Source of the DNA: Clostridia bacterium
Lineage (GTDB): Bacteria > UBA6262 > WVXT01 > JAUXBS01
NCBI GenBank assembly: GCA_030618495.1
Contig: JAUXDE010000083.1
Span: 1-8,017 of the forward strand
DNA length: 8,017 nt
Reading direction: 5' to 3'
Shown: piece after piece, positions 4,761 through 8,017 of the stretch
Layout: every line of letters starts with the position of its first letter
Position numbering within the stretch: the first letter of the stretch is position 1
Notes under the pieces: model-generated
What the model was told of the DNA's origin: nothing
The model's database searches: none
What the model saw: the letters and a program-made list of their open reading frames with translations, nothing else
Translations under genes and position numbers: made by a program

Positions 4761-4766
4761 AGGAGG
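4761..4766 (+). promoter_or_regulatory. Shine-Dalgarno of smc
   Basis: A perfect AGGAGG sits 4 nt before the ATG at 4771. The following GGAGT offers an overlapping register. Start choice is also supported because the conserved SMC N-terminus (FKRIELFGFKSF) begins at residue 3. Confidence 0.8.
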
Positions 4767-4770
4767 AGTA

Positions 4771-7710
4771 ATGTTTTTTAAACGTATAGAGTTGTTTGGA
4801 TTCAAATCTTTTGTAAACAGGGTAACAATAAAGTTTCAGCCGGGGATAACTGCTGTAATAGGTCCAAATGGCTGCGGTAAAACCAACATTGTGGATGCTG
4901 TGAAGTGGGTGCTTGGAGCCCAGAGCGCTAAACAGCTGAGGGGCAGCAGAATGGAAGATATTATATTTAACGGGACCAGTGACAGGAAAGCCCTTGGGCT
5001 GGCTGAGGTGTCGCTTACCTTTGATAATTCGCAGCAGATGCTCCCGATAGATTTTCAGGAAGTGACCGTAACCAGGCGCCTTTTCCGTTCCGGAGAAAGC
5101 GAGTATTTTATTAACAAGGCGGCCTGCAGGCTTAAGGATATTACCGAAATGTTTATGGACACAGGGTTAGGGGTTGATGCTTATTCGCTGATGGAGCAAA
5201 ACAAGATTGATTTTATCCTTAACAGTAAACCCGAGGAAAGACGCGCTATTTTTGAAGAGGCCGCGGGGATAATGAAGTATAAGACAAAAAAAGAAGAATC
5301 CCTGCGTAAATTAGAGCAGACCAAATCAAACCTGCTCAGGATATCCGATATCGTAGGGGAAATAAAAAAGCAGATAGGCTCACTTGACTATCAGGTCCGC
5401 AAGACAAAACAGTATCAGAAAAACAAGGAAAATATTAAATCTTTGGATGTAAAACATCTCTGTGAAGATTATATGCTTCTTGAAAAAGAAATGTCAGTAA
5501 GCAAGAAGATACTTGATGACATAGCTGACAGGATGGGGTCTATTAATACGCAAATTAGCAAGAAGGACGCTGAGGTTTCCGCCTTAAGGCTTAATCTCCA
5601 GGAGAAAGAGGAATCCATAATTACAACCCAGGAAAAAATATTCTCACTTTCTTCGGAAGTGAACCGCGCTGAAGACAGGGTTCAGATGGGAATTGAGCGC
5701 GCCAAAGAGCTGGAAGAGCAGGTAGAGGACCTGAAGGAAGATATTAAGGACGCCAGGGGAAAGATAGAAAATTTAGAGAAGAGTTTTGGTTCGCTTGAAG
5801 AAGCGGAAAAGGAACTGACTGTCAGTTTGGAAGGAAAGGAAGCTTCCACAAGGGGCAGGGAAGAAGTTCTTGAGGATAAGACTGAAAAACTCGGAGCATT
5901 AAAAACCGGTATCAGAAACAAGACGGAGGAATTTATCGGGCTTAAGGGCAGTGTCTCCCAGGTAAAAGCGCAGATGGAAAATCTTCAATCCGAAGAACGC
6001 AATGCCCGTTCCAGGAGAGAGAGGTTATGCAGGGAAGAAGAAATAATCAATGAGGACAGGAAACAGGTGTCGGTGGATTTGGAGAATAAAACCAGGCAGA
6101 TGGATAATTATATCCGCAGAAATGATGAGTTATCAGGTAAGAGGAATTTCCTGGTAGAAGTGGTCGAGCAGAATGCCTCAAACGAAAGACTGAAGAGGAA
6201 GTTTCATAAAGTGCATGATGCTATGCTTGGGATGGCAAGCCTTGTATCGGAGTACGATGAGTTGCTGGAAAGCGCGCTGGAGCATATTAAAAGGGAAGTA
6301 TCCGAAGTGAAAGCGCAGGATGATAAGTTCGAAGCGAGAATCCAGCCGATTGTTCATGAAAGGAACGAACTTGAGAAAAAAATAGTTGATGGCGCCAAAC
6401 AGTTTGAAGAGTTTGTGAAGAACCAGGAATCAATTGAGAAGCAGGCTGAAGAATGCAGGGCTTCAATATCGCAAATGGAAGCAGGGTCAATTTCCCTTGA
6501 AGAACAAATCAAGGTAGTCCGGGAGGAAATTACGGAGCTTAAAGTCGCCTGCACCGTTACGGGAGAGAAAAAATCAGGTATCAGGGCGGATTATAACAGG
6601 GCCCGGGAGGATAAAGAGAATTCAATAAGTCTCATCGGCAATAAGGAAAAAACTATTGTTGATATCGGTGAGCGGATAAAGGAAATAGAGAAGGCGGGCG
6701 TTAAAGCCGCCGAATCAATAGCCGTTTTTCATGAAGGACAGAACACTGCGGGGAAAGTCCTGAAAGAAATACAGGAAGAGAAAGAAAACATCGTTATAAA
6801 ACTTAAGAAAGAAGAAGGATTGATAGGAACGTTGAGAAAGGACCTTTCTTCGGTTCAGTCCGGTTCAGAACAGGACAGGATTAAGGAAACGCAAACAAAA
6901 ATGAAGGTGGAGCAGATTAAGGAGAAGTTATCCGGTGATTATGATATTTCACTTGATGACGCGCTGGCGTCATTTACAAAGGAAGAGCTGGAATCCCGCC
7001 AAAGCAGGGAAGAAGAAGCCGGGACAATTGAAAAATTAAGAAAACAAATTGATTCAATGGGGCCTGTTAACCTTGCCGCGCCTGAGGAATATGCCAAGCT
7101 TGATGAAAGGTACAAATTCCTGAAGGCTCAGGAAGAAGACCTGATAAGAGCGTCTGAAGACCTCAGGAAGGTTATTAGTAAAATAAATACAACTTCCCGC
7201 GCGAATTTTGAGAAGACGTTTAATCAGGTAAGAGAGAACTTCAAAAAGATATTCAATGAATTGTTTGAGGGCGGGAGCGCGGATATCGTCCTGGTCGATA
7301 ATGAAAACATGCTGGAGAGCGGTATTGATATTATTGCTCAGCCGCCGGGAAAGAAACTTCAGCACATAGCTCTCCTTTCAGGGGGAGAGAAGGCGCTGTG
7401 CGCCATAGCCCTGTTATTTGCCGTCTTCCTGGTAAAACCTTCTCCATTCTGTATCCTGGACGAAATAGACGCTCCTCTTGATGATGCAAATCTGGAAAGA
7501 TTCAAGAACATGCTCAAGAAATTCACAGCCAGGTCACAGTTCATTATGATTACCCACAACAAGAAGACAATGGAAATGGCTGATATACTTTACGGTATTA
7601 CGATGGAGGAATTCGGGGTTTCAAATATTGTTTCAGTTAAACTGAAGAAATCAGAGCCCGCCATTGACCAGGGTAAACCGGAGGAAGAGGAATTGCCGGT
7701 CAAAGTGTAG
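4771..7710 (+). CDS. smc: Chromosome segregation SMC ATPase, short form without a recognisable hinge domain
   Basis: SMC is the ATPase of the bacterial condensin that compacts and segregates the chromosome with ScpA and ScpB. The 979-residue product has an N-terminal head (1 to about 168) with Walker A GPNGCGKT (31-38), the RGSRMEDIIFNGT element (58-69) and a Q-loop at Q143. An N-arm coiled coil spans about 170-455 and a C-arm about 510-790. The C-terminal head (about 760-960) has GPVNLAAPEEY (764-774), signature LSGGEKAL (869-876), Walker B FCILDEID (893-900), D-loop APLDDAN (901-907) and H929. The head halves are as conserved as in any housekeeping SMC. The family is usually about 1,150-1,200 residues, and the shortfall is close to one hinge domain: no hinge motif such as GRxxFLPL is visible, and there is no CxxC zinc hook. 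Residues about 459-505 may be a hinge remnant. The gene has its own promoter and perfect ribosome binding site. The downstream glycosyltransferase gene begins 10 nt after its stop. Confidence 0.93.
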   Translation: MFFKRIELFGFKSFVNRVTIKFQPGITAVIGPNGCGKTNIVDAVKWVLGAQSAKQLRGSRMEDIIFNGTSDRKALGLAEVSLTFDNSQQMLPIDFQEVTVTRRLFRSGESEYFINKAACRLKDITEMFMDTGLGVDAYSLMEQNKIDFILNSKPEERRAIFEEAAGIMKYKTKKEESLRKLEQTKSNLLRISDIVGEIKKQIGSLDYQVRKTKQYQKNKENIKSLDVKHLCEDYMLLEKEMSVSKKILDDIADRMGSINTQISKKDAEVSALRLNLQEKEESIITTQEKIFSLSSEVNRAEDRVQMGIERAKELEEQVEDLKEDIKDARGKIENLEKSFGSLEEAEKELTVSLEGKEASTRGREEVLEDKTEKLGALKTGIRNKTEEFIGLKGSVSQVKAQMENLQSEERNARSRRERLCREEEIINEDRKQVSVDLENKTRQMDNYIRRNDELSGKRNFLVEVVEQNASNERLKRKFHKVHDAMLGMASLVSEYDELLESALEHIKREVSEVKAQDDKFEARIQPIVHERNELEKKIVDGAKQFEEFVKNQESIEKQAEECRASISQMEAGSISLEEQIKVVREEITELKVACTVTGEKKSGIRADYNRAREDKENSISLIGNKEKTIVDIGERIKEIEKAGVKAAESIAVFHEGQNTAGKVLKEIQEEKENIVIKLKKEEGLIGTLRKDLSSVQSGSEQDRIKETQTKMKVEQIKEKLSGDYDISLDDALASFTKEELESRQSREEEAGTIEKLRKQIDSMGPVNLAAPEEYAKLDERYKFLKAQEEDLIRASEDLRKVISKINTTSRANFEKTFNQVRENFKKIFNELFEGGSADIVLVDNENMLESGIDIIAQPPGKKLQHIALLSGGEKALCAIALLFAVFLVKPSPFCILDEIDAPLDDANLERFKNMLKKFTARSQFIMITHNKKTMEMADILYGITMEEFGVSNIVSVKLKKSEPAIDQGKPEEEELPVKV

Positions 7711-7720
7711 TAAACTGATA

Positions 7721-8017
7721 ATGAATAAAATCAGGATTCTTGATGCGAATGTAGACAACCTTGAACTGAAGGAAATAATTGACCGGGTTAAAGGGTTTGT
7801 CCAAAGCGGCAGGCCTAATATGATAATTACAGCCAATTCGTTGATGGTTAACTGCATTTCAGGAGACAACCGTTTAAAGAAAGTTTTTGATGAAGCGGCG
7901 CTTGTTTTAGCGGATAGTGTCGGTATCGTATGGGCGTCAAAGTGCCTTGGTGAGCCTGCCTTAAAAAGAATTCCCGGGATAGACCTCATGATAGAGATTT
8001 GCTCTTTAGCGGCCCGG
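7721..8017 (+). CDS. WecG/TagA/CpsF family glycosyltransferase (N-terminal part, continues beyond window)
   Basis: The frame is open from an ATG at 7721 to the right edge, giving 99 residues of a family that usually has about 200-250. TANSLMVN (37-44), ALVLADSVGIVWASKCLG (60-77) and RIPGIDLM (83-90) are diagnostic of this GT26 family. Members add N-acetylmannosamine or its uronic acid to undecaprenyl-diphosphate-linked GlcNAc in teichoic acid, enterobacterial common antigen or capsule synthesis, acting at the cytoplasmic face of the membrane. T37 and D65 correspond, as I recall, to the active-site Thr and Asp of Thermoanaerobacter TagA; the usual DG after that Asp is DS here. No Shine-Dalgarno is evident before the ATG. 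The start lies 10 nt after the smc stop, which suggests cotranscription and reinitiation. The exact sugar and polymer are unknown; genes further right would tell. Confidence 0.9.
   Translation, partial: MNKIRILDANVDNLELKEIIDRVKGFVQSGRPNMIITANSLMVNCISGDNRLKKVFDEAALVLADSVGIVWASKCLGEPALKRIPGIDLMIEICSLAAR

Follow-up and report, generated by a model that had tools for sequence, protein, structure and literature searches.

The sole Smc protein encoded in the genome of a bacterium deposited as Clostridia bacterium (GCA_030618495.1) was found to retain complete ATPase heads and long coiled-coil arms and to lack the hinge domain that normally joins the arms. Dimerisation, DNA loading and loop extrusion by Smc are all held to depend on the hinge. 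A sole chromosomal Smc devoid of it, which selection maintains along with ScpA, ScpB and ParB while a sister family of the order retains the hinge, represents a natural deletion experiment; it separates the hinge-specific roles from the roles that any apical link could play and is of direct relevance to the question whether the hinge can be dispensed with. Taken as a whole, the observations are best explained by an ordinary, functional Smc that has lost its hinge and probably dimerises through self-association of an apical helix, a reading which is held here at about even confidence. Hinge-less Smc proteins as a class have been known since 2025; the new elements here are an apparently independent origin, the genomic context, the placement of the loss between two sister families and an indication of how widely the trait is spread.

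The gene lies in a stretch of 8,017 nucleotides of the contig JAUXDE010000083.1 (hereafter referred to as the window), which carries a single complete smc gene, and its features are collected in Table 1. A preliminary description of the window had proposed intact heads with all the ATPase motifs in an unbroken reading frame, and this was borne out: the motifs could be read directly, the NCBIfam model SMC_prok_B (TIGR02168) matched the protein with 887.6 bits against a curated cut-off of 567.35, and the Pfam profiles SMC_N/AAA_23 matched the head region. The solved Smc heads 5xg3 and 5h66 were recovered from PDB both by sequence and by fold. Conservation of the head motifs was judged on the alignment columns of 42 Smc sequences, among which the corresponding columns are invariant or nearly so; the H-loop lies within ITHNKK (residues 927-932).

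Table 1. Features of the smc gene and its surroundings in the window (positions are those of the window; residues are those of the Smc protein)
Feature	Position	Strand	Basis
Ribosome-binding site AGGAGG	4761..4766	+	5' of smc; direct sequence reading
smc coding sequence, 979 codons (979 aa), sole Smc of the genome	4771..7710	+	Open frame from ATG at 4771 to stop at 7710; SMC_prok_B; only match in the genome (G000)
ATPase head, N-terminal half, residues 1-167	4771..5271	+	Pfam SMC_N/AAA_23; PDB heads 5xg3, 5h66
Walker A GPNGCGKTN, residues 31-39	4861..4887	+	Sequence; columns (nearly) invariant
N-terminal arm, helix 168-468	5272..6174	+	AlphaFold2; hydrophobic periodicity of about 3.5 residues
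Apex in place of the hinge, residues 469-500	6175..6270	+	Predicted turn 469-478, then hydrophobic helix (full-length model)
Possible hinge-helix relic, residues 475-498 (KRKFHKVHDAMLGMASLVSEYDEL)	6193..6264	+	Hinge-helix profile; hhalign register
C-terminal arm and joint, residues 501-831	6271..7263	+	AlphaFold2 helices 479-723, 770-831
ATPase head, C-terminal half, residues 832-957	7264..7641	+	Pfam/NCBIfam/PDB matches
ABC signature LSGGE, residues 869-873	7375..7389	+	Sequence; columns near-invariant
Walker B FCILDE, residues 893-898, catalytic E898	7447..7464	+	Sequence; D897 and E898 invariant
WecG/TagA-type glycosyltransferase gene after smc	7664-8017		

The missing hinge, also claimed in the preliminary description, was confirmed by profile searches, profile comparison and structure prediction. 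Pfam SMC_hinge (PF06470) gave no match to the window protein at E<=1 and no match anywhere in the whole 98%-complete genome, while the positive controls, the Smc of the sister family (L033) and that of the next relative (L036), scored 93 and 72 bits, respectively. A hinge HMM of 143 positions, built in this analysis from 47 full-length relatives and searched with the filters off, did not match the window Smc; most of the complete Smc proteins scored 83-191 bits with it (three low outliers lie at -1 to 9), and the same hinge tests gave 93-137 bits for sister Smc proteins. The hinge comparison with hhalign returned a probability of 0.4% for the window Smc versus 99.7% for the sister family, and the AlphaFold2 model contains no strand at the apex but helix only, so that the predicted structure offers no hinge fold. 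A divergent, hidden hinge is ruled out by the filters-off HMM, hhalign and AlphaFold2 results, and the Pfam search of the 98%-complete genome found no hinge encoded elsewhere. A Rad50-like zinc hook is also ruled out, as had been proposed, since the apex carries no CxxC and no cysteine occurs between residues 420 and 562 (the cysteines are at 35, 119, 231, 420, 562, 594, 877 and 894).

Over the matched range the sister Smc measures 1184 aa and the window Smc 979, a difference of 205 aa, and the alignment with L033 distributes the missing residues over four blocks (69+58+54+42 residues), which correspond to the hinge along with ~47 residues of the N-terminal arm and 42 of the C-terminal arm, the borders inside the coiled coil being approximate. 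The earlier account of a shortfall of about 200 residues, close to the size of the hinge, is refined in that ~40-50 residues of each hinge-adjoining arm appear to have been lost besides the ~160-residue hinge.

The AlphaFold2 model of the full-length protein (mean pLDDT 79.8, pTM 0.43) consists, around the apex, of a helix at 168-468, a loop at 469-478 and a helix at 479-723, and the arms on either side of the apex are nearly equal. The model supports a helical apex at which the chain folds back by a turn of about ten residues, at low confidence in the apex itself (pLDDT < 50 at 468-475 and 484-493). The apex fragment folded alone, from an alignment of two sequences, was predicted as one unbroken straight helix (pLDDT about 87-93 in its central part) and does not show the proposed fold-back; this prediction is too weak to decide between a hairpin and a through-helix. 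The helix at ~480-508 is one of the two most hydrophobic arm stretches in the window species (0.42 vs a mean of 0.27, SD 0.065), and conservation of the apex between the two species of the genus is average for the arms. No proline occurs at 155-525 of the window protein, while the related species has one at position 460.

The best placement of a hinge-helix profile in the whole window protein is at 475-498, with a negative score and a local-shuffle value of 0.0068 (0.0094 in L032), and hhalign puts the hinge helix in the same register with an E-value of 0.14. These placements are suggestive only of a relic of a helix from the second half of the hinge. Profile placement revealed no convincing trace of the first strand, the first helix or the Gly-rich motif of the hinge in the window Smc. 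The likeness to the start of a hinge, earlier noted for residues 459-505, is thus retained as a weak resemblance at 475-498, but to a helix of the second half and not to the start.

The same hingeless Smc is encoded in a separate MAG of the same genus (G001; L032, JAUXBS010000069.1, CSMAG_2805), and the family is sampled here by these two species only. The two proteins are both of 979 residues and align without a single indel at 72.5% identity. Synonymous sites are saturated (pS 0.73), while pN is 0.15 (pN/pS about 0.2) and varies from 0.06 in the heads to 0.17-0.19 in the arms and 0.27 in the apex. Saturated pS along with low pN and the absence of indels indicates long-standing selective maintenance of the hingeless Smc, and the lack of any gap across 979 residues indicates that neither the arms nor the apex have changed in length, although the two species diverged long ago. 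The preliminary description had allowed for close relatives that all carry full-length hinges, with this copy reflecting an assembly deletion; the comparison of orthologues instead revealed that the deletion is shared by both sampled species of the genus, G001 being equally hingeless, while the sister family has a normal hinge. Occurrence of the same architecture in a separate MAG shows that this is no deletion in a single assembly. The window genome is fragmented (179 contigs), which might favour a misassembly, a frameshift repair or a pseudogene; an artefactual or decaying gene is nevertheless barely conceivable given the ungapped copy in the second MAG, the strong purifying selection, the intact motifs and the clean frame, and this explanation was rejected.

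In the sister family, which belongs to the same order, four genomes (G002-G005) carry Smc reading frames of 1195-1212 residues with clear hinges, and the window Smc is orthologous to these. In a tree inferred from the head sequences, the window family and this hinge-bearing family group together with a support of 98/94, and the two join L036 and the hingeless family f117 (G120/G257) with a support of 100/99. As the second species is hingeless, the sister family has a normal hinge and no other Smc or hinge is present, the hinge was most likely lost in the ancestor of the window family, the moment of the loss being deduced. The Smc proteins of G120, G257 and G336 are the nearest hingeless relatives of the window Smc, and the apexes of the window Smc and of f117 are faintly alike. 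A tree constrained to unite the window family and f117 is worse by 8.1 log-likelihood units (p-AU 0.0455), by which a shared hingeless ancestor is marginally rejected; separate losses in the two families are the likelier, though not proven, history. Over the head tree as a whole the hingeless label changes seven times, including changes on weak deep branches and long rows, and the starred branches force four; the number of independent losses is uncertain. The entries L032-L035 are titled 'Clostridia bacterium', yet their Smc proteins group with Elusimicrobia fen_1175 and f117 rather than with the sampled Bacillota; the NCBI label is doubtful.

The smc gene of the window is the only match in the 98%-complete genome, which rules out a second, normal Smc as an explanation. 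ScpA (142 bits), ScpB (180 bits) and ParB (177 bits) were all identified above their curated cut-offs, the ScpA and ScpB genes being adjacent on contig C57. The presence of these partners with a sole Smc is most simply read as a chromosomal condensin; thus, the window Smc is probably the working condensin of an Smc-ScpAB/ParB system and not a spare copy. The ScpA of the window genome (L031:1099-2178) ends in an acidic tail of ~130 residues composed of near-identical repeats (EAKDSGGDDIVEESSEPAE..., then TEPAKTEPAET...). The neighbours of smc are unrelated to chromosome biology, with a DUF362-ferredoxin gene upstream, a WecG-type glycosyltransferase gene downstream and GT2, radical SAM and PMT-like genes farther off. 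A WecG/TagA-type gene follows smc in the window family, the sister family and L036, so that this gene order predates the loss of the hinge, while the DUF362-ferredoxin gene adjoins smc only within the genus.

The window Smc resembles the canonical Smc-ScpAB system (TIGR02168) in its ATPase heads, in both long arms and in the presence of ScpA, ScpB and ParB in the genome, and differs from it in lacking the hinge and in having each arm about 40-50 residues shorter beside the hinge position. As the hinge was tested for and is absent, the protein is filed as a hinge-less variant and not as a canonical Smc. In the freely searchable, published literature one precedent was found, the oceanic hinge-less SMC variants annotated as Actinomycetes and reported in 2025 (PMC12153180), which likewise combine Smc heads and a coiled coil with no hinge, no CxxC and no normal Smc alongside. 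The unusual condensin apex proposed in the preliminary description is soundly deduced, but hinge-less Smc has this precedent and recurs in several other, unrelated lineages. In contrast to the oceanic variants, the window case comes with a genomic context (ScpA, ScpB, ParB and a sole Smc). Its Smc groups in the head tree with hinge-bearing proteins from the same order, far from the sampled Bacillota. Judged from this tree, built without actinobacterial Smc and without the oceanic sequences, the window lineage appears to be separate from the oceanic clade.

RecN is also an SMC-like, hinge-free ATPase and dimerises through apical helices, which shows such helices to be a sufficient interface (PMC4255302); its coiled coil is, however, much shorter and it has no known partners, and the RecN equivalog model gave the window protein 51 bits against a cut-off of 407.85. 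Rad50/SbcC and the archaeal ASRP share with the window Smc a long coiled coil that ends in a small apex and not in a hinge, but the window Smc lacks the zinc-hook CxxC of Rad50/SbcC, and the Rad50 and ASRP models scored far below their cut-offs. Published work indicates that dimerisers of different fold can be exchanged, yet that some link is needed: the hinge of Bacillus subtilis Smc can be replaced by the Rad50 zinc hook, while loss of hinge dimerisation inactivates the protein (PMC5344682), hook and hinge are interchangeable in yeast Rad50 (PMC6969161), and a hingeless JetC core works only while held by an engineered covalent link (PMC12647877).

In the preferred reading, the family ancestor would have lost the hinge (~160 residues) and, on either side of it, about 40-50 residues of arm. 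As the model supports, the chain would turn back at ~469-478 and the arms would pair as an antiparallel coiled coil, bringing the head halves together. At the apex, the short hydrophobic helices 475-500 of the two chains would most likely associate with each other and so keep the dimer, and with it the ring, shut, in the manner of the RecN apical helices or the Rad50 zinc hook, and the other end would be closed by ATP-dependent head engagement and ScpA. Hinge-specific activities such as DNA binding and gating through the hinge channel would be absent. Such a tip-to-tip helical interface appears the likeliest dimer link because the helix at ~480-508 ranks with the most hydrophobic arm stretches and residues 475-498 occupy the position expected of a hinge-helix relic.

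Other arrangements of a functional hingeless Smc were also weighed. The monomers could be joined at the head end alone, through a ScpA bridge and ATP-driven head engagement and without any contact at the apex, and the complex would then work as a clamp or a bridge rather than as a closed ring. The absence of a recognisable dimeriser at the apex, the retention of ScpA and ScpB and the unusual acidic, repetitive tail of ~130 residues in ScpA are in keeping with this arrangement, which is nonetheless unlikely, though not to be dismissed, in view of the inactivation of B. subtilis Smc on loss of hinge dimerisation (PMC5344682), the cessation of DNA cleavage by the hinge-deleted JetC core once its engineered link was reduced (PMC12647877) and the strict, indel-free conservation of arm length, which suggests that the far end matters.

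A domain-swapped dimer, in which the helix continues unbroken across the apex, two chains lie antiparallel and each head is made of the N-terminal half of one chain and the C-terminal half of the other, would let the polypeptide itself join the arms in place of the hinge and would yield an obligately closed dimer that needs no dimerisation domain. Over-long helices are common from shallow two-sequence alignments, the helix is interrupted at 469-478 in the full-length model, QNASNE has the look of a turn and position 460 is a proline in the related species; this makes the swap improbable, even though the apex fragment is predicted as a continuous helix (pLDDT about 87-93 mid-segment), the arms are nearly equal and free of indels, and the segment 155-525 of the window protein is free of proline. 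The combined proposition that hinge loss is recurrent and viable in bacteria and that the ring of this lineage is closed by such domain-swapped antiparallel chains is given marginally less credence than the swap itself. Dimerisation could also be supplied by a separate partner protein at the apex; Pfam SMC_hinge detects no hinge-like protein in the genome, but an unrelated protein would escape this kind of search. As the DUF362-ferredoxin and WecG-type neighbours of smc include no candidate, such a partner is improbable.

Of 336 genomes surveyed, 264 have an Smc and 225 a Pfam hinge. A missing Pfam hinge match alone was not accepted as a loss, since some long Smc proteins have divergent hinges, as in L104 and L106 (G018 and G305, family f15), where the hinges are reduced or very divergent and hhalign recovers the second half only (52%). 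Short Smc proteins in which the hinge signal is fully absent occur in G022/G169, G120/G257 and G205, and that of G308 is short with essentially no hinge signal; recurrence in other lineages provides independent replicates of the natural experiment. The hingeless Smc proteins of G308, G022 and G169 (L097, L102 and L103, respectively) are of 927-1075 aa, with apexes that look like longer helical bundles, and a Pfam hinge was found in only one of the 120 genomes of the phylum of G022 and G308. The smc gene of G308 is adjoined by RNase HII and DUF3276 genes, an arrangement also seen in Borrelia, and the phylum is perhaps Spirochaetota. If so, the loss may bear on the lack of inter-arm contacts in Borrelia chromosomes; the Smc of Borrelia has been termed canonical (PMC10406323).

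All three genomes of the small phylum of G120 have a short Smc without the hinge part of the model, and Smc proteins of 980-1003 aa with this part missing are found in G120 (L100:1088-4096), G257 (L101:128-3127) and G336. The Omnitrophota genome RA.bin146 encodes a 1100-aa Smc without a hinge (L040:6001-9300), in which the first hinge strand may have left a trace (HQSGIIGKVKEV); in the related L082 the hinge is complete. A hingeless Smc of 720 aa (L099:990-3149) is encoded in the complete 0.6-Mb genome G205. The 709-aa Smc of G202 (L098:970-3096) has very short arms and no Pfam hinge and carries CNDCGKPVTIISECNHCGK, with two CxxC motifs, at its midpoint; its apex looks like a natural zinc ribbon or hook, and the protein resembles the laboratory chimera of B. 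subtilis Smc with a zinc hook.
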